Made by a program: the position numbers and the translations under genes. The notes under the pieces are model-generated. The model saw only the letters and a program-made list of their open reading frames with translations. It was not told where the DNA came from and ran no database searches. Source: Kordiimonas sp. SCSIO 12610 (GTDB lineage Bacteria; Pseudomonadota; Alphaproteobacteria; Sphingomonadales; Kordiimonadaceae). Taken from it: DNA of 64,000 bases. The DNA lies in contig NZ_CP073747.1 in assembly GCF_024398015.1 (NCBI RefSeq), positions 1,250,501 to 1,314,500 of the forward strand, read 5' to 3'. This document shows, piece after piece, positions 1,803 to 19,780 of this stretch. Every line of letters begins with the position of its first letter. The stretch's first letter is position 1.

Positions 1803-2984
1803 TTATTTCGAAGGCAGCCAAGTGCTGAGGAACTTTATGCTGTTTCCCCCCATAATCTTGCGAATATCATCAGGGTCAATGCCGAGTGCAATCAGCTCAG
1901 TGGTTATGACCGCCAAATCATCGGCTGCGATACTTTCGGTTGATCCATCCCAGTCAGACCCCAAGGCGATATGATCGCTACCGACAAGGTCAATCCCATA
2001 TTTAATCATCCCGGCGATTGATTGTGGGGACGGGTCGCATACCGCGCCGTCCCAGTAACCGAGTGCGATTAAGCCGCCCTTAGAAGCGATTTCCTTCATT
2101 AAATCATCAGGATAGTTTCGCGGGCTATCACAAAACCCTTTGAGCCCTGTATGGGAGATCACGACGGGGCGTGTGCTTAGGGCAAGGACATCACGTGCCA
2201 TTGCTTCTGAGGCGTGAGCGAGGTCGATGATTATTTCTTTTTCATCCAGTTGCTGGATCACCTGTTTGCCAAAGTCGCTGAGGCCAAGACCATTTTTACC
2301 GTGAAGGGAACCCCCGAGCTCGTTATCAAAAAAGTGCGTTAAGCCAACCATACGAAAACCAGCGTCATACATGCGGGTAATATTGTCGATATTCCCTTCA
2401 AGCGGATGCGCGCCCTCGGTGCCCAATAAGGCACCAATGGGTTTGACCTGAGAGGTAGATCGATGGCGGCTGATCAGGAATTGCTGCAGGTCTTCTTTGG
2501 ATTTGATCCAGATAAGCCCGCCATTTGAAGCAGTGATCAGGTTATCCAACTTCTGGGCCTGATAAAGCGCGCGTTCAAGGAGGCTGTTCCAGGTGCGGGT
2601 GGGCCAGCCCTGCACGATTGTAAGGGCGGTTATGCGGTCGCTATCGGCGCTGTTTTCCTCGTAATTTTGACCTTCAGGGGATTTTGTAACCGTTGTAAAC
2701 ATTTGAACGGCGATATTACCATCATTCAAACGGGGTAAATCCACATGGCCAAAATCATGACGGTTGAGGGCATTTCGGTCCCACAAAAGCGTGTCTGCAT
2801 GCCAATCCATAATCAGCATGTCTTTATGAAGCGTTCGTGCCTCAATCGGTACTGTGAATGGTTCGTGGGGCCATATTTTGTTGGTGGTTTTGTCGATATA
2901 TTCTGGCAGGAACAATCGCGTACCAACAATACCCGTTATCAGCAACGCAAGAATGATAAGTGGAATTTTCACAATCTTCGGCAT
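1803..2984 (-). CDS. Membrane-anchored dipeptidase, peptidase family M19
   Basis: This 393-residue protein matches renal-type dipeptidases of family M19, which are zinc enzymes that cleave dipeptides, including D-residue dipeptides in bacteria. The metal ligands are visible: His62 and Asp64 in MDWHADTL, the bridging Glu190 in LLGTEGAHPLEG, His257 in DLAHAS and His278 in VVISHTGLKG, followed by GSDWDGS. Residues 5-25 form one hydrophobic helix that should act as a signal anchor, placing the enzyme in the periplasm or at the inner membrane. It is convergent with the RimK-like gene and close to its end. The family call is secure; the natural substrate is not known. Confidence 0.9.
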   Translation of the reverse strand: MPKIVKIPLIILALLITGIVGTRLFLPEYIDKTTNKIWPHEPFTVPIEARTLHKDMLIMDWHADTLLWDRNALNRHDFGHVDLPRLNDGNIAVQMFTTVTKSPEGQNYEENSADSDRITALTIVQGWPTRTWNSLLERALYQAQKLDNLITASNGGLIWIKSKEDLQQFLISRHRSTSQVKPIGALLGTEGAHPLEGNIDNITRMYDAGFRMVGLTHFFDNELGGSLHGKNGLGLSDFGKQVIQQLDEKEIIIDLAHASEAMARDVLALSTRPVVISHTGLKGFCDSPRNYPDDLMKEIASKGGLIALGYWDGAVCDPSPQSIAGMIKYGIDLVGSDHIALGSDWDGSTESIAADDLAVITTELIALGIDPDDIRKIMGGNSIKFLSTWLPSK

Positions 2985-3072
2985 TAAAGATGTTCCTGAT
3001 AATCGACGGCAAACAAGTTAGAAAAAAATACGTTGTTGCTAACTTTAACCTGTTTCAGCGAGAATTAAAGAC

Positions 3073-3702
3073 TTATTGCATTTCTGAAATTGTATGCCCC
3101 ACTTTGTTCGCTAGGTAGACGCTCAACATTTTGACGTCGCTTTTTGTTTTTGTCTCATAACCAAATTCTTCGTAATCTTCTTTATCAAAATTGCCGAGAG
3201 TAATATTCAAATCCTTATCGTAAATGACTGTGTTTTCGGATGAAAATATTTTTAAATTTGCAATGAGGTGGCTTCGGTTGTTTGAGTGGGGAATTACATA
3301 GAAGGTATCATTGCGATAATGACCAATGTCGTTAGAGAAGAATGCGACAGGGTAACCATCAATCTTTATTTTTTTAATCTCGACCAAATATTTAGTTCTA
3401 TTGATGCTGCGATTTTTTAAATTATGTTTGATAAGTAGATCTATAATCCTGGATAATTCGAATCTTTCAACATTGTTAAAGATTTCATGATCTAGAAATG
3501 GAAGTTTTTTATATCTTAGCCGTCGATGATTTTCTTTGATATTTAAACTTTGAACCCGCTGGCTAAGCTTTTTTGAATAAATTACGCTTTTTGATAAAGA
3601 TACTGAGCTTTCAGCTATCGCTCCGTTATAATTAGACCCCAGGAAAAAAGTAACTAAAATTATAACTGTAATAGTTTGAAGTTTTGCCAAGAAATAATAC
3701 AT
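3073..3702 (-). CDS. Secreted single-domain protein related to the M56 sensor repeats
   Basis: About 209 residues with a signal peptide (residues 1-30, ending near AIAESS) and one copy of an unrecognised domain of about 170 residues. The domain is clearly related to the third repeat of the neighbouring M56 protein: both have YSxK...SLNxxEN near the start, then EIF/PIF-xx-(I/V)ERFEL, then a HNLKxR segment, an IKI-xx-Y-x-(I/V)AFFS strand, and a (F/Y)DKxDY...GY end. It lies 105 bases downstream of the M56 gene on the same strand and is probably co-transcribed with the repressor and protease. The reading frame is open further upstream, but the ATG at 3702 follows GGGGGG by six bases and opens the signal peptide, so it is preferred. 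Its base composition is AT-rich. Function is unknown; a ligand-binding partner or decoy for the sensor is an inference. Confidence 0.75.
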   Translation of the reverse strand: MYYFLAKLQTITVIILVTFFLGSNYNGAIAESSVSLSKSVIYSKKLSQRVQSLNIKENHRRLRYKKLPFLDHEIFNNVERFELSRIIDLLIKHNLKNRSINRTKYLVEIKKIKIDGYPVAFFSNDIGHYRNDTFYVIPHSNNRSHLIANLKIFSSENTVIYDKDLNITLGNFDKEDYEEFGYETKTKSDVKMLSVYLANKVGHTISEMQ

Positions 3703-3807
3703 CATAATCCCCCCGTGATTATTTTTGCACGAATATACTGCGTCGTAGCAGTTGGTGCAACAATGACCGCGTCCCATCTATTTACCGCGAAGCCAACCTT
3801 CTCGGTA

Positions 3808-6800
3808 TTATAACGTCTTTCTTGGGTTTCTTATAGTTTGAGTATGATTGTTCTTTTCGATAAATGCGCTGACCTCATTGGAAAATATCGAGGTAAGTTG
3901 CTTTACCTTGCTTTTGGTTTGACGTTGATATCCATGAATTTGATAATCGCTTTTATCGTAATTCTGGATATCCACTTTAATGTCATGCGTTGAAATTGCC
4001 CCACTAATCTTGTTAGTTAACTTCAGCTTGCCCTTTATATGAGGAGGCTCGGCATGAGTTCCAAAAAAGGTGTCAAATGGTCCTGAAAAGAAGGCGATGC
4101 TGTATTGATTGATTTTGATTTCTTCCAATTCTAGCGAGAGGTCTATGTCTCTAAGATCAATTCCTCTGGATTTCAGGTTGTGGCCTAAAAGCTGTTCGAT
4201 AACTGTGGCCAATTCGAAACGTTCGATGTCATCAAAAATCGGGTCCTGAAGAAACGAATGCTTTTTGGACGTGTTTTTACGCTTATTCTCAAATGTGTTT
4301 AGGCTTCCAATTCGACGGGCAATTTTATCGCTATATGCCACTTTGATGGCTTGGAAGTTATTGTTTTTGTGGGGGCGACTTTCCGTGATTGTCTCGTTGG
4401 GATAAGTACTAGCAATTTTGTGAGCAACAGTATTTGCCAGCATTGTAAGGATGGATTTTAATCCCGTATCATCCCGAAAACCTATATAGCCGTATTTATG
4501 GTATTGGTTTATTCTAAAGTCATCTGGGTCGGTTTCAAGCTCAACAGTATCAATGATACTGCCATTGGGTGAAGTTATTTCCAAGGTTGCAGTTATTTGC
4601 TTTGGTTCACGATTCTCCGCTGAAATGTTTGTTTGCTGAGTTATGATATCCGCTTGGATTGAGGGGTAACCGTGCAGTCTGATAGCATTGATTTTGAGTG
4701 AATATTCAAAATCATAAACCCTGCGCTGCCTAAGTCCATGCCTTATAAGCGTTTCCAATACTTCATCAATTTCAAAGCGGCTTTTGCCAGCGAAGAGAGA
4801 GTGAGAAAGGAAGTTTCCGCCATTCACTGTTTCAGTCTGATTGATGACTGGGATATAGGGTTTTAAGGCATTTGAGAACTTTATATTAGAGCCATATGCT
4901 TCATGCTTCACTGCCTCATAGTATTCTTTATGATTTGTTTGTTTGTTCAATGAATATCGAGGGTGCGCATTTTCGTTCTTCAGCGCTTCCTGTATCGCTT
5001 CCGCTGCACGGTAACTGAAAACAGTGATCAGGCTTTTCATGCCTAAGACATCAATATAATCGCCTGGTTCTGAATTAAGATTCTTTAATTCTTGTGCAAG
5101 GTTGATATTTATTTTTTTCTTTGAGAGGACCTGCTCTTCATTGCCTAAAACTTCTAAACGTGCTGACAATGTTATTGATAAAAATCCATTATCAAAACAA
5201 TCTGATGAACATGAAGACAAATTGTTGATTACTGCAATGCCATAACCCGGGACATTGATTCCCTTGATGTGCAAATTATATGAAACATCGTCAATACCAC
5301 CGTCCCTCAGGTGATGTTCGATTAGCCTGGGGATAATTTCCGTTATGTCGAAGTCTGTAACGCCCTCAAATATGGGGAAGTCATAGTATGGATTGGCTTC
5401 AAGTTTCCTTTTTTGCATGGGTCTGGCGTCAAGTCGTGCTTCTTGTTTCGCTATGCTTCTTAGGTATCTTCTTAGACGGCTACTGAAGGTGATGTTGTAA
5501 TTGATAGTGCTAAGGTTTTCGTTTTCCACCCCATCAGAGGCGGTTGCTATTGAATATTGCTCGAAGGTCGGTGTGATTGACGTGTCGGGCGTGGACGGCG
5601 AAAGCGGAAAATGTTCCGCGGATATTTGTTTTACCAACCCGTCTTTGATATCAAAACTCAAGTCAGCTGTTGGAACCGTATTTTCTGCCTGATAAATGCT
5701 TCGCTCAACATGCCAGTCATTTTCCTCGCTTTCTGGCGGTGTGGGCTGTGTTGAAGTGTTTGCAAAATTCTGATTGTTATCAGTTTCAAATTGGGTTTGA
5801 ACCTTTTCAATAATCGTGTCCGAAGCGTCTGCAACAAAGGTGATATTGGGAACCGTTAGTGCGATTACCAGTATGACGCCAGCGGTCGACATAGATTTCA
5901 TGACCTCTACCTGATCTAATCTTTGGCGTTTTGCCTTCAGCAGGGTTTTAATCCTATTGGGTAGCAAAGAGTTATTGCTGGCCATCATGGCGTGCAGATT
6001 ACGTTCGCGCGTGCTGGATATATTTTGTGCACAAACATAGAGTGTTTCAGCAAGGTTTGTTGGTTCATTGGTATGTGCAATTGCCCATTGATCAGCATCA
6101 AATTCGGCAAGTTCTACCAATCGATTTCTCGCCAATAGAAAGAGGGGCTGGAAGAAACATAGTTTGTTCACAAACATAGTCGTCAGCAGCATTATAGGGT
6201 CGTTATTTGCGATATGGCCAAGCTCATGCGCCAATAAGCTTTCAAGCTGAACGGTTGGTAATTCGTCCTCAATCGCCCAAATAGGCAGGCAAATTTCGTG
6301 GTTTGATACGCAAACAGGGCTCTGTATATCGTGTGAGTATGTCAGGCGAATATGGCTTGTCAGGCCTGTTTTCGCCATCATGTTGTTGACAATATCATTT
6401 GCAATGTGGCTTGGCGGCACCTGCTTACGTTCGCCGAGCGCTCTATGGCTTTGGATATAGCTTATCAGGAAATACAGTATTCCGCCGCCAGTGATGAACA
6501 TCCAAAGGGCCGTGATGAAATCAGCATAACTATATCTTGGCGAGGAATAGGGTGCAGATGGAATAGTAAGCGAGGCAGGCGTGTTGGGTAATTCGATATC
6601 CTGCCTCGCTCCCCCAATCAAGCTTTCACTGTCGAAAGCAGATTGAACCGGGTGGGGTTCAGTTGGTTTGTTTAATGACGGAATGAAACTGGTAGTTTTG
6701 AGGGCTTGAAAAACTGGTTCGGCTGCTTCTTTCTTAATTTCGATCGCTGATTCTGAAGTGAATGAAATTGGCAGAGTGGCGATGAAGCATGCCATGTATG

Positions 6801-6963
6801 CCGTTTTCCAGGCCAGCTTTCTTAGAGCCGTTGACTTTAGAATTTTTGTTTTTTCCGCGACCCATACACAACTAAAAACAATTGTACTGGTCAGTAGGAA
6901 TTTAAAAAAGATTGCAAGAAAGGCCGTATTTGTGACTATGTCTATATTGATTGTATCCAGCAT
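3808..6963 (-). CDS. BlaR1-like M56 membrane metalloprotease with three tandem sensor domains
   Basis: A 1051-residue protein. Residues 1-380 are an M56 (BlaR1/MecR1) module: hydrophobic helices near 14-36, 52-68, 150-170 and 357-375, and the zinc site HELGH (His246, Glu247, His250) with Glu287 in ELAEFDAD. BlaR1 proteases sense a ligand outside the cell and trigger loss of a BlaI repressor. The outer part (380-1051) is not the penicillin-binding domain of BlaR1: it is a linker plus three copies of an unrecognised domain at about 486-662, 684-853 and 872-1036. Repeat 3 is closest to the two stand-alone secreted copies; repeat 1 has a Cys585/Cys589 pair. The gene starts two bases after the repressor stop codon, with AAGGGG as ribosome site. 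Ligand unknown; protease assignment secure. Confidence 0.85.
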   Translation of the reverse strand: MLDTINIDIVTNTAFLAIFFKFLLTSTIVFSCVWVAEKTKILKSTALRKLAWKTAYMACFIATLPISFTSESAIEIKKEAAEPVFQALKTTSFIPSLNKPTEPHPVQSAFDSESLIGGARQDIELPNTPASLTIPSAPYSSPRYSYADFITALWMFITGGGILYFLISYIQSHRALGERKQVPPSHIANDIVNNMMAKTGLTSHIRLTYSHDIQSPVCVSNHEICLPIWAIEDELPTVQLESLLAHELGHIANNDPIMLLTTMFVNKLCFFQPLFLLARNRLVELAEFDADQWAIAHTNEPTNLAETLYVCAQNISSTRERNLHAMMASNNSLLPNRIKTLLKAKRQRLDQVEVMKSMSTAGVILVIALTVPNITFVADASDTIIEKVQTQFETDNNQNFANTSTQPTPPESEENDWHVERSIYQAENTVPTADLSFDIKDGLVKQISAEHFPLSPSTPDTSITPTFEQYSIATASDGVENENLSTINYNITFSSRLRRYLRSIAKQEARLDARPMQKRKLEANPYYDFPIFEGVTDFDITEIIPRLIEHHLRDGGIDDVSYNLHIKGINVPGYGIAVINNLSSCSSDCFDNGFLSITLSARLEVLGNEEQVLSKKKININLAQELKNLNSEPGDYIDVLGMKSLITVFSYRAAEAIQEALKNENAHPRYSLNKQTNHKEYYEAVKHEAYGSNIKFSNALKPYIPVINQTETVNGGNFLSHSLFAGKSRFEIDEVLETLIRHGLRQRRVYDFEYSLKINAIRLHGYPSIQADIITQQTNISAENREPKQITATLEITSPNGSIIDTVELETDPDDFRINQYHKYGYIGFRDDTGLKSILTMLANTVAHKIASTYPNETITESRPHKNNNFQAIKVAYSDKIARRIGSLNTFENKRKNTSKKHSFLQDPIFDDIERFELATVIEQLLGHNLKSRGIDLRDIDLSLELEEIKINQYSIAFFSGPFDTFFGTHAEPPHIKGKLKLTNKISGAISTHDIKVDIQNYDKSDYQIHGYQRQTKSKVKQLTSIFSNEVSAFIEKNNHTQTIRNPRKTL

Positions 6964-6965
6964 TT

Positions 6966-7346
6966 TTATTCCCCTTGATTTTTATTGTTATCAAGAAGAG
7001 AGCGGATTTCCTCCAGATCGTCGTCGCTGAATTCATTCTCACGAACGAGGTGTGCCAAAAGACTTGAAGCATTTCCCTTAAATAGGGTGGAAACAAGCGA
7101 AGAAACCATGTTTTGCTGAATATCTTCTTCGCTTACAATAGCTTTGAAAATACGTTGTCGCCCACGCGGCTCGGATACAAGTACTCCCTTTTTCTCCAGC
7201 CTTGTTAAAATGGTTCCAACGGTTGTATGCGCCAGATTGAGCTCTTTGATATGGTGTTGCACATCTTTTGCAGACCCTTCGCCGAGTTCCCATAGGGCGC
7301 GAACGATCTGATACTGCTGATCACTAAGCTTGATGTTTTTGGACAT
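6966..7346 (-). CDS. BlaI/MecI-family winged-helix repressor
   Basis: About 126 residues with a typical BlaI/MecI layout: a winged helix-turn-helix (SDQQYQIVRALWELGEG; then AHTTVGTILTRLEKKGVL with the TTVxTxLxRLxxKG core) and a C-terminal dimerisation part. Such repressors bind paired palindromes and are inactivated when the partner M56 protease is activated. The start at 7346 follows GGGAG; the frame remains open upstream through the operator, which argues against a longer protein. It is the first gene of the operon with the M56 protease (two-base gap). Two TACA/TGTA-type palindromes lie just upstream, so autoregulation is likely. No beta-lactamase gene lies in this window. Confidence 0.9.
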   Translation of the reverse strand: MSKNIKLSDQQYQIVRALWELGEGSAKDVQHHIKELNLAHTTVGTILTRLEKKGVLVSEPRGRQRIFKAIVSEEDIQQNMVSSLVSTLFKGNASSLLAHLVRENEFSDDDLEEIRSLLDNNKNQGE

Positions 7347-7362
7347 AGAACACTCCCAATCG

Positions 7363-7406
7363 CTACATGTGTAGTAGAGATTGCTACACATGTAGTAGAT
7401 AGTCAA
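7363..7406 (-). promoter_or_regulatory. Promoter with two BlaI-type operators
   Basis: On the leftward strand a TTGACT -35 element lies at 7401-7406. Two 15-bp sites follow: CTACACATGTAGTAG at 7384-7398 and CTACATGTGTAGTAG at 7363-7377 (plus-strand reading). Their 12-bp cores are exact reverse complements of each other, each is nearly palindromic, and they are spaced 21 bp apart, two helical turns. The first sits in the promoter spacer and the second between promoter and repressor start. TACA/TGTA palindromes are known operators of BlaI/MecI proteins. The -10 element is poorly defined. Confidence 0.8.
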
Positions 7407-12706: not shown

Positions 12707-15700
12707 CTATACTGCTTGCTGCTCAAAGGGCTTTGACGTTTTCGCGGGCTTCGGCCTGTCGGCACCGCTACCTCGTGGTGCTGAAACCGGACGTTTGCGC
12801 GTTAGCCACAGGAATGCAGCCGGGGCAAAATAGAAACTAACAATCATCGATAGGAAAGCACCGCCGGCAATCGCAACTGCAAACGGTGGCCAGAAAGCGC
12901 CGCCCGCCAGGATAAGCGGCATAAACCCACCTACAGTTGTCAGTGTCGTTGAGAAGATATGACGGCCTGTTTTCATAACGCCGTGAACAACTGCGTCCGG
13001 GTCGCCCGCACGCGCGGCATCAATACCTCGAAGCTCAGATAATATAACGATAGCTGCATTGATCGCGAGGCCCACCAGCCCCATAAGGCCGAAGATCACA
13101 ACAAAGCTAAGCGGGTAATTGAAGAACCAAAGGGAGAACAGCCCTAGTCCACCTGCCTGAACGGCGGCAGCGAAAGTGACAAGTGCCATCCGGAAACTGT
13201 TGAAGGTCAATACGATAGCGAGGATCATCATAATAACCAACATACCAGCAGTGCCGAACAGCTTCCCAACGGCTTCGTTGCGTTTTTCACTTTCGCCGCC
13301 AAACTGAATTTTATACCCGGGGGGCACGGTAAAGTTTCGTTCTGCGATGCGTTCCTGAAGGGCTTTGAAGCCAACTTCCGGCAGAACACCAAATTCAAGA
13401 TAAGCCTGAACCTTGTTCATGCGCTCGTTATTATAGTGCGAAATTGAGCCGACCTTAGTGCCAAGTTCAACATCAGCGACCGCCGATACAGGAATATCAG
13501 CGAACGATTGATCTTGCTCAAGCTCCTGATTAACGCCGATCAGGTTCATATCTGCGATCGAAGAAATATCGCGGCGGCGCGCGCGTTCTGCGATCAATTT
13601 AATAGGAACCTGCTGCGTTTCTTCTATTAGGAATGAGGTTGTAATACCGTTTGTTAAGGCCTGTAGTTGGCTTTCCACATCGCTTAGTGTTAAACCTGTT
13701 GTGGATACATCATCCTCGCGTGCATTCACAGTGATCTGCGGACGCCCCGGTTTCAGGGATGTTCTTGTATTGGTAACGTCTGGGATCGTTGCGATAATGC
13801 TTCTGATTTCATCGCCCAATTCCTGTAATACCGCGAGGTCGGGACCGAGAACACGAACTTCAAGTGGCGCTTGGATAGGGGGGCCGCTTCCAAATTCGCG
13901 GACGATGATTGTCGCCTCTGGCACCAAAAGCGAAATGTCATTCTGAAGCTGCGGAATAAGATCTGGAATATCATTAAAGTGGCCAACCGTAACAATTGCC
14001 TCAGCAGCGCTGACAACGCGGTCATTGCTAGCAATCATGCTATAATAAAATTTGGCTGGCCGTGTTCCCATGAACCAATGGGCGCTTTCAATAACCGGAT
14101 AGTTATCGAGTGTTGCATGTATCCGCTCAACAGCGCCGCGCGTTTCCTCAATAGACGCCTGTGCGGGCATTGAAACCTGAATACGGAACTGATTTCTGTC
14201 GCTTACAGGGAAAAACTGTTCGGTCAATTGCCCTGCAAGGGCAAACCCCATCAACGGAATGCCCATGGCAACTACGATCGACCTCAAGGGGCGCCTTACG
14301 GACCATTGAAGCGAGGCTTCAAACCATTTTGCGAGGTATCCCCCCTGAATGCCATCACGCCACCATACGCGCTCTTCGGCTGTGTTAGCCGTTGCCGCAG
14401 TTTCTGGCTTGCGACCTTCCACCACACGGCCCGCGACTGCGGAAATGATGGTGAAGGCGATAACATAGGACGCAACAAGGGATGCGATCACCGCCGCCGG
14501 CACACCGATCAAAAAGTCACCAGCATTACCCGGCATCAGAATAAGCGGCATAAAGGCGATAATCGTGGTTAGTGTACTTCCAAGAAGGGGAAGCCAAAGT
14601 TTTTGAACTGTCATCGCAACAGACTTTGAGCGCCCTATGCCTTTTAGGCGAAGCTGCTGGATTTCATCTGTGATCACAATGGCATTATCCACCATGATGC
14701 CAAGGGCAACAATCAAACCAGTAACCAACACTTGTTCGATCCGCATGCCAAACAGGTTGGTGATTGCAAGCGCGGCTAAAAGCGTGAGGGGCAGGATAGA
14801 CGCTGATACAATTGACGCGCGCCAGCCCAGTGAGACAAAAAGCACAACCAAAACCACAAGGGCACCAACAGCCAGGTTGGACATCAGGTTATTTAACCGC
14901 TCGTCCGCATAAAGACGCTGGTCAAAGATACGTTCCAATTTAATCGATGCTGGAAGGGTTTCCCGTGTTGCTTCTAGAAGTTCGCCAACATCCTCTGACC
15001 ATGCATCAATACGTGAATTTTCAAACATCCTCGCGGCGACAATCACACCGTATGTACCGTTCACATAGGCAAGGTTGCTTGGTGGGTTTTCAAACGAACG
15101 TTCAACCTTGGCAACGTCGCCAAGCCTTAGGCTGGCCCCTTCAGGGTCAAGACCAAGGGGAATACGTCTGATACGAGCAAGGCTATCGAGCGCGCCGGAC
15201 ACTTCTACGACAAGGCGGTTATTGGCACCAGTTACAACCCCCGCAGACCCACGAGCGTCAGAACCTCTGATGCGGGCGGCGACATCCGCCATAGTGAGGC
15301 CGCTAGACGCCAGCTCGCGGTCATCGACTGATATGCGGATTTCCTCGTTTGGCAAGCCGAGTACGTCAACAAAGTCAGTGCCGCTGAGGTTCCGCATTTT
15401 ACTTTCGAGTTCAGAGGCATGGCGGCCAAGGATAGCATAATTAATCGGGCTATCGCTTTCCCATGTTAGGGCGATAATTGCGGAGTGAGCATAGATTTGT
15501 GTGTCCGAAAGGTCAGGGGCAGACGTGCCAGCCGGAAGGTCCGTGACCTCGGAAATCTTATCACGTAAGCGCGCAGTGATTGGTTTTGCGTTATTGACCC
15601 GGTCCTCAAGCTCAATCGTTACCACGGAAATGCCAGCGGATGATGTGCTGTTAACCTCTTTGACTTCTGGGATTTCGCGAACTTTGCGTTCCAGTTTTTC

Positions 15701-15886
15701 TGTGATTTCTGCTTCCACGCGCTCTGCTGATGCACCGGGGTAAAAAGTTTTTACCTGAACGACACGGCTCTCCATGTGCGGGTCTTCAAGGCGCGGCATT
15801 GTGGTAAAGGCGTTGAAGCCAGCAATGATGATCAAGAGAAGTAAAAGCCAAACCGCGCGTGGGTGATTATATAGCGAACCTTTCAT
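12707..15886 (-). CDS. RND efflux permease, AcrB/HAE-like
   Basis: A 1059-residue inner-membrane proton antiporter of the RND superfamily. It has the two-fold layout: helix near residue 15, a large periplasmic loop to about 330, six helices, a second helix near 545, a second loop and six more helices. The TM4 proton-relay region reads GIMVDNAIVITDE, with one Asp where AcrB has two. Its membrane fusion protein is encoded just upstream with an 11-base gap; GGAG precedes the start. No outer-membrane channel gene is in the window. Substrates are unknown. The divergent TetR-type gene is the likely regulator. Confidence 0.92.
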   Translation of the reverse strand: MKGSLYNHPRAVWLLLLLIIIAGFNAFTTMPRLEDPHMESRVVQVKTFYPGASAERVEAEITEKLERKVREIPEVKEVNSTSSAGISVVTIELEDRVNNAKPITARLRDKISEVTDLPAGTSAPDLSDTQIYAHSAIIALTWESDSPINYAILGRHASELESKMRNLSGTDFVDVLGLPNEEIRISVDDRELASSGLTMADVAARIRGSDARGSAGVVTGANNRLVVEVSGALDSLARIRRIPLGLDPEGASLRLGDVAKVERSFENPPSNLAYVNGTYGVIVAARMFENSRIDAWSEDVGELLEATRETLPASIKLERIFDQRLYADERLNNLMSNLAVGALVVLVVLFVSLGWRASIVSASILPLTLLAALAITNLFGMRIEQVLVTGLIVALGIMVDNAIVITDEIQQLRLKGIGRSKSVAMTVQKLWLPLLGSTLTTIIAFMPLILMPGNAGDFLIGVPAAVIASLVASYVIAFTIISAVAGRVVEGRKPETAATANTAEERVWWRDGIQGGYLAKWFEASLQWSVRRPLRSIVVAMGIPLMGFALAGQLTEQFFPVSDRNQFRIQVSMPAQASIEETRGAVERIHATLDNYPVIESAHWFMGTRPAKFYYSMIASNDRVVSAAEAIVTVGHFNDIPDLIPQLQNDISLLVPEATIIVREFGSGPPIQAPLEVRVLGPDLAVLQELGDEIRSIIATIPDVTNTRTSLKPGRPQITVNAREDDVSTTGLTLSDVESQLQALTNGITTSFLIEETQQVPIKLIAERARRRDISSIADMNLIGVNQELEQDQSFADIPVSAVADVELGTKVGSISHYNNERMNKVQAYLEFGVLPEVGFKALQERIAERNFTVPPGYKIQFGGESEKRNEAVGKLFGTAGMLVIMMILAIVLTFNSFRMALVTFAAAVQAGGLGLFSLWFFNYPLSFVVIFGLMGLVGLAINAAIVILSELRGIDAARAGDPDAVVHGVMKTGRHIFSTTLTTVGGFMPLILAGGAFWPPFAVAIAGGAFLSMIVSFYFAPAAFLWLTRKRPVSAPRGSGADRPKPAKTSKPFEQQAV

Positions 15887-15897
15887 GATGGTGGCTC

Positions 15898-17055
15898 CTA
15901 TCCGCGCGGTGATACGGTTTCAACAGATTGCACGCGTTGACCGGGCGCAAGTTTGTCGATGCCGTCTGCGATTACAATATCGCCTTCCTTAATTGTTCCA
16001 GAAACAAAAACGCTGTTGCCGTCGCTATATTGAATTTGAACATTTTCAAACCTGACTTTAGGGCCATCAGGGCCATCAAAGACCTTATAGACACGCCACA
16101 AGCCTCGAACATCAGCGGAAAGCGCCCGAAGCGGAAGCCATGCGCCGCTGGTTTCCTGCCAGTCATCAACGACGGCATTGATCAATTCCCCGCGTGATGT
16201 GCTATCACTCGGTAGGTCGAACGAGACCATCATTGTCCGCGTGGTGCCTGTAATCACAGGAACGACCGACCGCATTGTTGCATTTCTGATAGCTTTTCTA
16301 TCACCGTTGCGCAGCGAAAATTTAGCACCGTTCTTAATTGCCTGCGCAAACTCTGGTGGCATACCAATGCGTGCTTCCATACGGCTGTCTTCTGAAAGTT
16401 CCAGAACGGCAAGGCCAGCGTTTGCAATCGTGCCTTCATCCAGCATTCTTGCTGTGATCGTTCCTGAAAAGGGTGCCTTTATAGTCGCGCGGTTAATGTC
16501 AACATCAAGCGAATTTAAGGATGCATTCAATCGTGCAAGGCGAGCTTTGAGCGATATAGCGTTTGCTTCTGCTTCGTCAAGGCGCTGCGCTGAGGCATGA
16601 CCCTGTTTGAAAGTGTCGCTAACACGTTTTAAGGTCCGGTTTGCAAGCTCAAGGTTTGCTGTAACCTCATCCTTTTCCGCTAATAATTCACCGCGGCGTG
16701 CATCAAGAACTGCTGTGTCCAGCTCGGCAAGGGTATCACCTTTCTGAACGCTACTACCCAAATCAACATACACATGCTTGAGTGTGCCATTCAGTTCAAA
16801 GGCGAGTGGGCTAACACGGCCAGCAACCGCGCGCCCTGTGAAGGTACGTTTAGCAAAATACCCATTTTCCATTTGGATATTGACCGTGCGCACTGGCAAC
16901 TCTTTCGTTGTCGTGGAGAGAGGGGAGGACTGAGCTGTCAGGCGCACGGTCAGGGGAACGCTTATGGATGCAATTATGGCAATGAGCCCTGCCAATTTCA
17001 GGAACCGGGAGTTCTGCAACACACTTGAACCATTCCTTGATAAGAGCTTTCTCAT
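15898..17055 (-). CDS. RND efflux membrane fusion protein (HlyD family)
   Basis: About 385 residues, the periplasmic adaptor that links the RND permease to an outer-membrane channel. A hydrophobic segment at about residues 20-45 should anchor it. The lipoyl/hairpin region is visible as LKHVYVDLGSSVQKGDTLAELDTAVLDA followed by a helical hairpin (about 110-180) and the matching half INRATIKAPFSGTI. The start at 17055 is preferred because AGGA lies eight bases upstream; an ATG at 17064 overlaps that site. It is first in the operon with the permease. Confidence 0.9.
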   Translation of the reverse strand: MRKLLSRNGSSVLQNSRFLKLAGLIAIIASISVPLTVRLTAQSSPLSTTTKELPVRTVNIQMENGYFAKRTFTGRAVAGRVSPLAFELNGTLKHVYVDLGSSVQKGDTLAELDTAVLDARRGELLAEKDEVTANLELANRTLKRVSDTFKQGHASAQRLDEAEANAISLKARLARLNASLNSLDVDINRATIKAPFSGTITARMLDEGTIANAGLAVLELSEDSRMEARIGMPPEFAQAIKNGAKFSLRNGDRKAIRNATMRSVVPVITGTTRTMMVSFDLPSDSTSRGELINAVVDDWQETSGAWLPLRALSADVRGLWRVYKVFDGPDGPKVRFENVQIQYSDGNSVFVSGTIKEGDIVIADGIDKLAPGQRVQSVETVSPRG

Positions 17056-17414
17056 ATTTACCATCCTGGGGTCTCGCTATCGGTCATAAAACCGAACAAA
17101 CTATTCATGTACAATTACTATTAATACGAGTGTCGTTATTTTTTTATTAATATTATCAGCCCCAATATTACCTATGATTTTTATATTATGGACTGTTACG
17201 TCTAATAAATAGGATTTTTTTGTGGACTGTCAAGTCTATTAAATGTAGAGAGTGAAAAAATTAATGAATGCAAGCTATTCATATTTGAAATCAAATCTTC
17301 TGATGATACGATATTTTGTGTTCATTGGATTTTTGTGAATATATGCGCTAGCATTTGATAGAGTTTAGAAAAGTCACCAGGGAATTCTGGTGGAATGGGG
17401 AAAAGGAAATTTGC
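17056..17414. promoter_or_regulatory. Divergent efflux/TetR promoter region with two 22-bp repeats
   Basis: This 359-base AT-rich gap lies between the efflux operon and the TetR gene. It contains two 22-bp direct repeats, 17189-17210 and 17223-17244, identical at 19 of 22 positions, both starting TGGACTGT and ending TAAAT. The second contains the inverted half-sites GACT-N4-AGTC. The repeats are 34 bp apart and are the best candidates for the regulator's operators; this is inferred from position only. I see no gene here. Confidence 0.6.
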
Positions 17415-18074
17415 GTGCCTGACAACGCTCTGACTTGTGACGATCAATCACCGCTTTGCAAACCCGCTCGTGGTAGGCCGAGAAGTGATGCCAAAAACCT
17501 TGCTATTATGGAAGCAGCAAGCCAGCTGTTCATGGAAAACGGTTTTGACGGCACGAGTATGGATGAGGTTGCCAAAAGGGCGGGTGTTTCAAAGCAAACG
17601 GTTTATAGCCACTTCGCGAATAAAGAGCAGCTTTTCAGTGCGGCAATCCGCGGTAAAATTGCTGAATATTTCCCGGATAGCCTGTTTCAGCATATGCCGG
17701 ATCATACCCTTGAAGATGATTTCAGGATTGTTTGCCGAACTTTCTGTGCGCTTCTTGTTAGTGAAGATGCGATCGCAATGTTCAGAGTGCTGACTGGCGC
17801 TGCTGCGAAAAACTCAAACCTCGCAAAAATATTCTGGGACGCTGGACCAGAAGACATGCTGACAAAATTGATTGATTTTCTCCAGTCGTGGATCGATCGC
17901 GGCGAGCTAGAGATTAAAGATACCGAGCGTGCTGCCACGCAGCTGATTTCCCTTTTGAAAGGTAACCTGCATTTCCAATTGGCGATTGGCTTGGTTGAAC
18001 AGGTTTCAAATGAAGAAATTGAGCATCATGTCAATGAGTGCATGTCGGCATTCCTGAAAATTTATCGCGCTTAA
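17415..18074 (+). CDS. TetR/AcrR-family transcriptional regulator
   Basis: A 219-residue regulator. Residues about 15-75 hold the TetR DNA-binding domain: RGRPRSDAKNLAIMEAASQ, then GFDGTSMDEVAKRAGVSKQTVYSHFANKEQLF, which is the classical helix-turn-helix. The C-terminal part is a TetR_C-type ligand and dimer domain, with a YRA end. The GTG at 17415 is chosen because AAGGAA lies seven bases upstream; a longer frame from a TTG at 17355 is unlikely. It is divergent from the RND operon and probably represses it in the absence of inducer. Confidence 0.88.
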   Translation: MPDNALTCDDQSPLCKPARGRPRSDAKNLAIMEAASQLFMENGFDGTSMDEVAKRAGVSKQTVYSHFANKEQLFSAAIRGKIAEYFPDSLFQHMPDHTLEDDFRIVCRTFCALLVSEDAIAMFRVLTGAAAKNSNLAKIFWDAGPEDMLTKLIDFLQSWIDRGELEIKDTERAATQLISLLKGNLHFQLAIGLVEQVSNEEIEHHVNECMSAFLKIYRA

Positions 18075-18560: not shown

Positions 18561-19214
18561 TTACTTATTAATTTGAGTGTCATATTCTTCAGCAATTTTT
18601 TTGCCTATTTTGTTTGCTAGGTAAGCGCACAATAATTTAGCGGCCTCATTTGTATCTTTATCATAACCATATTTTTCAAAGTCTTTCTTATCATAGCTCC
18701 GAAGCGTAACTTTTATTTTGCGATTGAATAAAATATCTCCGTTTTTGTCCAAGAGTTTTGCTTTTGCTTTTATGTAACTTGCACCGGAAATTCTAGCCAT
18801 TCCAGGAAATTCAAACTCTGTTGAAAAACCACTTCCGCTAGAAAAATAGGCAACAGGGTAATGATCTATCATGATTTTCTTGATTTCTACGTGGTAATTG
18901 GCGAAAGCAATATTTCTTGCTTTTAGGTTTTCTTCAATGAGGCGATTGAGAACTATAGAAAATTCAAAGTCGTTTATATCATCAAATATTTCATGATTAA
19001 GATAAGATATCTTTTTATAATTTTTATTATATTTTTTATTTTCTAAAGTATTTAAACTATTAATGTTTTTGAGAATTTTTTTACTGTATGTGACTGTACC
19101 TTTAATTTCTGAGTTTATTTCAATCGCTACATCATTGCTTTTTACAGGTGAAGCAAATGCGGTAAAAATCATAATAAAGTTTATGAACACTATTTCTGTG
19201 AAAGATAATTTCAT
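18561..19214 (-). CDS. Second secreted single-domain protein of the M56 sensor-repeat family
   Basis: About 217 residues with a signal peptide (1-22, ending TAFASP) and one copy of the same unrecognised domain found in the M56 protein and its secreted neighbour. Shared features in order are YSKK...SLNTLEN, HEIFDDI-xx-FEF, ENLKARNI, VEIKKI-x-IDHYPVAYFS, YDKKDFEKYGY and LANKI. It is closest to the 3073-3702 protein. The ATG at 19214 follows GGGGGG, the same unusual run seen before the other stand-alone copy; an upstream in-frame start is less likely. The gene is AT-rich. It lies about 12 kb from the M56 operon, and no BlaI-type palindrome is seen upstream. Function unknown. Confidence 0.75.
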   Translation of the reverse strand: MKLSFTEIVFINFIMIFTAFASPVKSNDVAIEINSEIKGTVTYSKKILKNINSLNTLENKKYNKNYKKISYLNHEIFDDINDFEFSIVLNRLIEENLKARNIAFANYHVEIKKIMIDHYPVAYFSSGSGFSTEFEFPGMARISGASYIKAKAKLLDKNGDILFNRKIKVTLRSYDKKDFEKYGYDKDTNEAAKLLCAYLANKIGKKIAEEYDTQINK

Positions 19215-19387: not shown

Positions 19388-19768
19388 GGGCGCGCAGATG
19401 GCTGGATGGTCGCCGCTCTAGAGAAGAGGGGAGGAAAGTCCGGGCTTTATGGAAACACGGTGCCAGTTAATGGCTGGCGAGGGTGACCTCAGGGAAAGTG
19501 CCACAGAAAGCAAACCGCCAGCTATAGGCTGGTAAGGATGAAAGGGTGCGGTAAGAGCGCACCGCGTCGCTGGTAACAGGGATGGCAGGGTAAACCCCAC
19601 CGAAAGCAAAACCAATAGGGATGGTTGCCTTTAATGGCAGGCGGGTTTCCACGCTATCGTCCGGGTAGGTTGCTTGAGTTTGCTGGCGACAGCAAATCTA
19701 GATGAATGATCATCGAAATGTTGAAATGGAAACATGGAACAGGACCCGGCTTATAGGCCATCTGCCCT
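19388..19768 (+). ncRNA. rnpB: RNase P RNA, type A
   Basis: The catalytic RNA that matures tRNA 5' ends. Conserved parts are visible in order: GAGGAAAGTCCGGGCT (P4 5' strand and J3/4), ACAGAAAGCAAACCGCC, AAGGGTGAAAGGGTGCGGTAAGAGC-like core (P10-P12 region, slightly varied), and the 3' P4 strand within GGACCCGGCTTA. The ends pair as P1: GCAGATGGC at 19394-19402 with GCCATCTGC at 19757-19765. The exact ends are approximate. A TTGACC -35-like element at 19359-19364 lies upstream. Confidence 0.93.
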
Positions 19769-19780
19769 ATACTTTAGCTG

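Follow-up and report, generated by a model that had tools for sequence, protein, structure and literature searches.

To our knowledge, few pairs of a BlaI-type repressor and an M56 membrane protease beyond the beta-lactam receptors have a known input. In the BlaR1-BlaI pair of Staphylococcus aureus, BlaR1 cuts the repressor BlaI, as described in PMC9834060, and the extracytoplasmic part behind its last membrane helix carries a penicillin-binding sensor with an SXXK motif (structures 8exs and 8exp). PetR-PetP of Synechocystis is likewise a BlaI/BlaR1-type pair, with copper as its signal instead of a beta-lactam and a small regulon, reported as four genes (PMC7896320). Here we describe a related locus of Kordiimonas sp. 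SCSIO 12610, whose genome is complete and consists of a single contig of 3.50 Mb. The window that we analysed is a stretch of 64,000 nucleotides (positions 1,250,501 to 1,314,500 of contig NZ_CP073747.1), and all coordinates below are positions within it unless stated otherwise. It encodes a BlaI-type repressor, an M56 protease of the BlaR1 type, a secreted protein that we call S1, and an M19 protein. In contrast to S. aureus BlaR1, the M56 protein has no penicillin-binding SXXK sensor but three copies of an unrelated domain, and comparison with its orthologues indicates that this outer part has been exchanged.

The M56 protease and its orthologues

The M56 gene (3808..6963, - strand; 1051 aa) encodes the only protein of the genome that exceeds the cut-off of PF05569 (60.1 bits, cut-off 31). 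Aligned to BlaR1 (8exs), it has H246, H250, E287 and D291 as zinc-site residues, and D255 and R337 at the positions of Asp210 and Arg294, the BlaR1 reference residues being those of PMC9834060. By this alignment the gluzincin HEXXH/EXXXD zinc site, of the cytoplasmic type, is intact and is the same as that of BlaR1. Three segments (15-33, 149-167, and 360-378) pass the hydropathy threshold, and by analogy with the topology of BlaR1 the part after residue 378 is presumably periplasmic, following the last membrane helix as it does in S. aureus. The adjoining gene (6966..7346, - strand; 126 aa from its ATG) encodes a repressor that matches PF03965 with 95.9 bits (cut-off 22.6), the sole match over cut-off in the genome, and the MecI structure 1sd6 at an E-value of 2e-12. 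On these matches it is a member of the BlaI/MecI family, as is the S. aureus repressor.

A search for M56 proteins in 59 relatives gave matches in 35, and 20 loci with long M56 frames were fetched (L114-L133), which we compared with the window and with its one sampled congener, the sister species G001. The blaI gene adjoins the M56 gene in all 20 relatives. Upstream of blaI there are two exact CTACAnnTGTAG dyads in 16 of them, one in two, and near dyads only in a further two; the window and G001 have two dyads each. In a tree of the M56 core, the 20 relatives, the window, and G001 form one clade (100/100) apart from 20 other M56 proteins, with the window and G001 paired at 100/100. This tree has 42 rows and came with long-branch warnings; L087, L090, and L104 of the 23 paralogue loci were left out for want of a usable frame, M56 matches without a locus were unused, and the syntenic-looking proteins of G009 and G006 were not included.

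The outer part of the 20 orthologues consists of a beta segment followed by 34-residue repeats with an SDYE or SDFE signature (in L116 a regular expression for SDYE finds one repeat, and SDFE repeats are apparent on reading its sequence). A profile of these outer parts does not match the window M56 and gives no better than E 1.3 for G001, and the profile of the window's domain matches none of the 20 orthologues better than E 0.35, leaving no detectable relation between the two kinds of outer part. The 20 matches of the repeat profile are given by construction, as these very proteins were its source, and the independent test is a scan of 118 relatives, in which 12 of the 20 genomes lie outside the profile. 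There the repeats occur in 25 of the 118, in families f1, f2, and f8, and are absent from the window's genome and G001; an earlier scan without a positive control agreed. The domain, in turn, is found at the M56 locus only in the window's genome and in G001. A preliminary description of this DNA had proposed looking for blaI-M56 operons with the same domain in other genomes, and that of G001, with a single copy, is the only one recovered.

On these comparisons, the presumed input module of the locus has been replaced, with the BlaI relay and its operator kept, and what is new here is that orthologous M56 loci differ by such a swap of their outer part. Because the window belongs to family f1 and the repeats also occur beyond it, in f2 and f8, they appear to be older and to have been replaced in this genus. 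The simplest reading is that the SDYE-type repeats are ancestral and that this genus swapped in the domain, although the order may have been the opposite, with the domain as the ancestral input and the repeats as the newcomer.

There are two further observations on the repeats. Four of the loci L114-L133 were scanned against Pfam, and no model exceeded its cut-off for the SDYE/SDFE-type repeats. In L130 (genome G005), about 1 kb (2681-3714 of that locus) separates the M56 and M19 genes. The SDYE-type repeats go on in a short frame within this interval, which points to a frameshift at the 3' end of the M56 gene.

The repeated domain and its secreted relatives

The domain is about 170 residues long and is present five times in the window, always on the - strand. 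Three copies lie in the M56 protein, namely c1 (residues 483-668; 4960..5517), c2 (680-860; 4384..4926), and c3 (866-1045; 3829..4368). Each of the other two forms a secreted single-domain protein: S1 (3073..3702; 209 aa), whose signal peptide was read from the sequence, and S2 (18561..19214; 217 aa), 11.6 kb away. The preliminary description had proposed these five copies, three in the M56 protein and one in each secreted protein, and our profiles recover them with somewhat wider envelopes in the M56 protein (478-670, 681-865, and 862-1048, against 486-662, 684-853, and 872-1036). With S1 as the only query against the whole 3.5-Mb genome, the other four were found at E 2.7e-36, 4.4e-27, 6.5e-11, and 2.3e-10, and profiles made from four copies scored the fifth at 74.0-153.5 bits, compared with 10.9-13.8 bits for the best of 2000 shuffles per copy. 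In the five-copy alignment the shared blocks fall in the order originally given, and identities to the first copy are 39, 39, 25, and 24%, which bears out that c1 and c2, singled out in the preliminary description, are the most diverged. The copies therefore belong to one family with alignable blocks rather than to different known families.

The domain had been described as unplaceable, and it remained so in every library that we searched. For the domain, as for six single-domain relatives, all Pfam and NCBIfam models stay below their curated cut-offs, PADLOC gave no match, and PHROGs gave weak partial matches only. In a Protein Data Bank sequence search, the best match was an unrelated LysR-type regulator (E 1.4), and a literature search returned no paper on the domain or on M56 in Kordiimonas. 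Among the candidates that we rejected were the sub-threshold models T5orf172 (E 0.0026), judged to be a chance match, RUN, AMG1_III, and YlmH_1st. Also judged to be chance were an AMP-binding match on L056 (E 2.6e-4), which is below cut-off and lies over the signal-peptide region, and phrog_4531 (E 0.0014), in which no single stretch passes alone.

Profiles, hhalign, and a domain tree all place the domain in a larger, mostly secreted family. The five-copy window profile matched five of 196 genomes, including the window's own: G001 at E 3.5e-34 and three genomes of other genera at E 1.2e-6, 4.5e-6, and 1.9e-4. When 396 genomes of the order were searched with an enlarged profile, 31 matched at E <= 1e-4, in 13 of 84 genera. 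In these Kordiimonadales-type genomes most members are secreted and about 210-280 aa long, apart from a few longer mechanical frames; they have signal peptides and no transmembrane protease, and they are usually encoded alone, with some tandem pairs. Frames of M56 size that carry the domain occur in only two of the 31, the window's genome (1057 aa) and G001 (682 aa), the other matching frames reaching at most 493 aa. The link between the domain and the secreted family is not circular, because a profile of secreted members only, run on 277 open reading frames (ORFs), ranked the window M56, S2, S1, and the G001 M56 as its top four (E 2.7e-14 to 1.7e-5; next 0.77), and hhalign matched the window set to the secreted set at 98.0% and E 2.3e-13. 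With secreted relatives across the order, an origin of the domain at this locus does not hold. A class-level sample gave two of 385 genomes, the window's own and one weak partial match (E 6.2e-5); beyond the class the search covered plasmid records only, which contained no match to S2.

The window's genome also encodes a sixth, more distant member, which is 78% identical to its G001 counterpart and is flanked by genes that we take to encode an L25-like ribosomal protein and a PRPP-synthetase-like protein; the setting is the same in G027. A member 65% identical to this sixth copy is found in L064 (SMNZ01000006.1). This record bears the name Alteromonadaceae bacterium M269, and there may be an error in either its title or its assembly. 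In L022 (7753-9539 of that locus) and L060, both from f6 genomes, two family members stand in tandem, in L022 next to a large secreted protein.

Secreted members have an N-terminal E..FR block and a C-terminal RVGP block, neither of which is present in the window's five copies; the RVGP block is also absent from the G001 M56 copy. In the domain tree (46 rows, with envelopes shorter than 150 residues and repeat fragments of the window M56 dropped), all five copies from the window group with that of the G001 M56 in a single clade (100/99) that excludes the 40 secreted domains, which, together with the absent RVGP block, marks these six as a separate subfamily. Within the clade, c1 is paired with the single copy of the G001 M56 (99/95), its ortholog, and therefore c1 was on the M56 protein before the two species split, one of which now has three copies and the other one.

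A fold prediction, proposed earlier as a check, was carried out with AlphaFold for S1 and c1 with ten sequences each. The models (mean predicted local distance difference test, pLDDT, 80.0 and predicted template modelling score, pTM, 0.78 for S1; 75.9 and 0.76 for c1) agree on a strand-helix-helix-strand-strand-helix arrangement, in outline a beta-alpha-beta-beta-alpha fold, in which a loose loop follows the second strand. No Foldseek match to either model reached E <= 0.001, the best ones being PqiC for S1 (0.046) and LptE for c1 (0.0037). By VIA-align, S1 resembles CT253 (Z 8.5, root mean square deviation 2.9, 111 residues) and the DUF330 protein XCC0632 (Z 7.8, 3.5, 117), and c1 resembles XCC0632 (Z 9.2, 3.4, 125), CT253 (Z 8.9, 4.0, 122), and PqiC (Z 7.9, 3.4, 120), with FlgT, CsgG, PelC, LptE, and TolB further down the list; the tool itself notes that unmatched models often give Z values around 8. 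A similar arrangement is seen in PqiC/DUF330 (8q2d, 2iqi), LptE (8h1s), CsgG (4uv2, 6lqh), and CT253 (6uxc), and the best c1 rows for PqiC, DUF330, CT253, and CsgG have Z 7.0-9.2 over 109-125 residues. PqiC, LptE, CsgG, PelC, and FlgT are parts of envelope complexes. Because ribosome hibernation factors are in both fold lists as well, the arrangement is partly a common one, and the models point to a resemblance to envelope proteins without membership of any of these families. Unlike the PqiC/LptE/CsgG-like lipoproteins, S1 and S2 have signal peptides without a cysteine and no lipobox.

Operon, operator and a proposed switch

Leftwards on the - strand, the gene order is blaI (7346-6966), M56 (6963-3808), S1 (3702-3073), and M19 (2984-1803), and the four genes are likely to form one operon with S1 as its third gene; unlike BlaR1-BlaI of S. 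aureus, it has no beta-lactamase gene. The last gene (1803..2984, - strand) encodes a protein that matches PF01244 with 210.2 bits (cut-off 26) and that we take to be a membrane dipeptidase. In G001 the M19 gene immediately follows M56, and S1 is lacking.

BlaI-type operators follow the consensus TACAnnTGTA, and a double dyad of this type, a predicted operator by its sequence, lies at the promoter of blaI itself. The likely -35 hexamer TTGACT (7401..7406, - strand) is followed 6 bases downstream by dyad 1 (CTACATGTGTAG on the - strand; 7384..7395), which sits between the likely -35 and -10 elements, and then by dyad 2 (CTACACATGTAG on the - strand; 7363..7374). G001 has TTGACA at the equivalent -35 position, keeps dyad 1, and has CTACAGATGTAG as the counterpart of dyad 2. 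The double-dyad pattern occurs once in the whole genome. The preliminary description had called for a list of genes with the operator, and this list is short: the exact dyad CTACANNTGTAG has three sites in the genome, two of them in the operon's own promoter, and a reversed control pattern has one. Since the only other site equals the control level, a wider regulon was rejected for exact dyads and the circuit is probably small, like that reported for PetR/PetP. Loose dyad matches in the window are at chance level (14 observed, 14.16 expected). The third exact dyad, CTACATATGTAG (3375526-3375537 of the genome's contig; L083), stands alone 178 bases before a 388-aa ORF and may be there by chance.

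Between the operon and S2 there are genes that we take, from their sequence, to encode a resistance-nodulation-division (RND)-type pump and its adaptor (12707-17064, - strand), along with a divergent TetR-type gene (17355-18074, + strand). The class A RNase P RNA (19394-19769, + strand) is divergent from S2 and has a short intergenic stretch in common with it.

Our favoured reading, which we hold to be slightly better than an even bet, is that of a BlaI-M56 switch which regulates itself, has S1 and M19 in its operon, and acquired its periplasmic input by capture from a secreted envelope protein. BlaI bound to the double dyad that overlaps its own promoter would repress blaI, M56, S1, and M19. 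The three tandem domains behind the last membrane helix of M56, derived according to profile and tree from a secreted envelope family of Gram-negative bacteria, would serve as an input array, which a signal in the periplasm or envelope, either a ligand or a partner protein, would alter. M56 would then cut BlaI, as BlaR1 does (PMC9834060), and derepress the operon. Induction would raise the M19 dipeptidase, the probable effector, and also S1, which would most likely act as a soluble brake competing for the same ligand or partner; this is the least secure part of the model. Elsewhere in the Kordiimonadaceae, the SDYE-repeat input would drive this relay and operator, and the relay would therefore be modular.

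Several points weigh against this reading. The position of Tyr261, near strictly conserved in BlaR1 according to PMC9834060, is taken by Leu304 in the window M56, albeit in a weak alignment to 8exs (E 0.0039). An M56 protein is expected to have four membrane helices, with the zinc site between the third and the fourth; in the window M56 three exceed the hydropathy threshold, and the second stays below it but is above it in G001 (56-74). The input copies lack the RVGP block of the secreted family, and the fast divergence of c1 and c2 is equally compatible with weak constraint. S2 has no exact dyad, and the one near match listed for it differs at two bases, falls within the S2 coding sequence, and is no better than chance. 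The switch does not require S1, because the sister species lacks it, which fits an accessory role. Finally, the M19 dipeptidase hints at cell-wall peptides as the signal, but it is a weak guide, because an M19 gene is near M56 in only 12 of the 20 fetched relatives, whose outer part differs.

Alternative readings and significance

The homology between the input domain and secreted proteins of the same genome also fits another arrangement, in which the fused domains still bind the partner that the secreted family has in the envelope, and the state of this partner (free, saturated, or disturbed) is what M56 reports. The M56 copies would then be a bait derived from the real clients, namely S1, S2, and the sixth copy. 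The similar folds of PqiC, LptE, CsgG, PelC, and FlgT agree with such a role, and the sixth copy has been kept in both species. A common partner is unproven, however, because the tree places the fused clade far from the sixth copy and its RVGP block is gone, and we regard this arrangement as unlikely. If it held, the locus would be a bacterial integrated-decoy receptor, with the domain of an envelope protein copied onto a repressor-cutting protease through which the cell reads the state of the partner, and with S1, S2, and the sixth member competing and setting the threshold; we are equally doubtful of this extension. We think it similarly improbable that the domains are not an input at all and serve as a tail for structure or dimerisation, or are a passenger in decay, with a relay that responds to the membrane part or to no specific signal. 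The fast divergence of c1 and c2, the long branches, and the copy number of three against one in the sister species speak for this, but all five copies keep recognisable blocks in open frames, the S1 and c1 models fold alike, and the same position holds the sensor in BlaR1 (PMC9834060 and PMC7593790).

An ordinary beta-lactam receptor with a diverged sensor would share the BlaI-type operator and the M56 relay, and some beta-lactams can be hydrolysed by animal M19 dipeptidases. Against it, no Pfam model of a penicillin-binding or transpeptidase domain matches the M56 protein at E up to 1, NCBIfam blaR1_generic scores 36.1 bits (cut-off 400) over residues 148-401 only, and the models are unlike class D beta-lactamase among the listed fold matches, which makes this explanation very improbable indeed. 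The preliminary description had seen here a different sensor on the BlaI relay. That view is strengthened by a single unlisted domain family behind the last membrane helix, the intact zinc site, the neighbouring BlaI, the double operator, and the missing penicillin-binding domain; what does not stand is the suggestion that the last of these sets the locus apart, as the 20 orthologues carry SDYE-type repeats there and PetR/PetP, a pair of the BlaI/BlaR1 type, responds to copper (PMC7896320).

The locus amounts to a natural domain-swap experiment: core, repressor, and operator are constant, close relatives have entirely different outer parts, and the modularity of the relay is directly testable. 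The domain also brings to light an undescribed secreted family with a predicted envelope-protein-like fold, and the M56 protein would be the first link of this family to a signalling protein.

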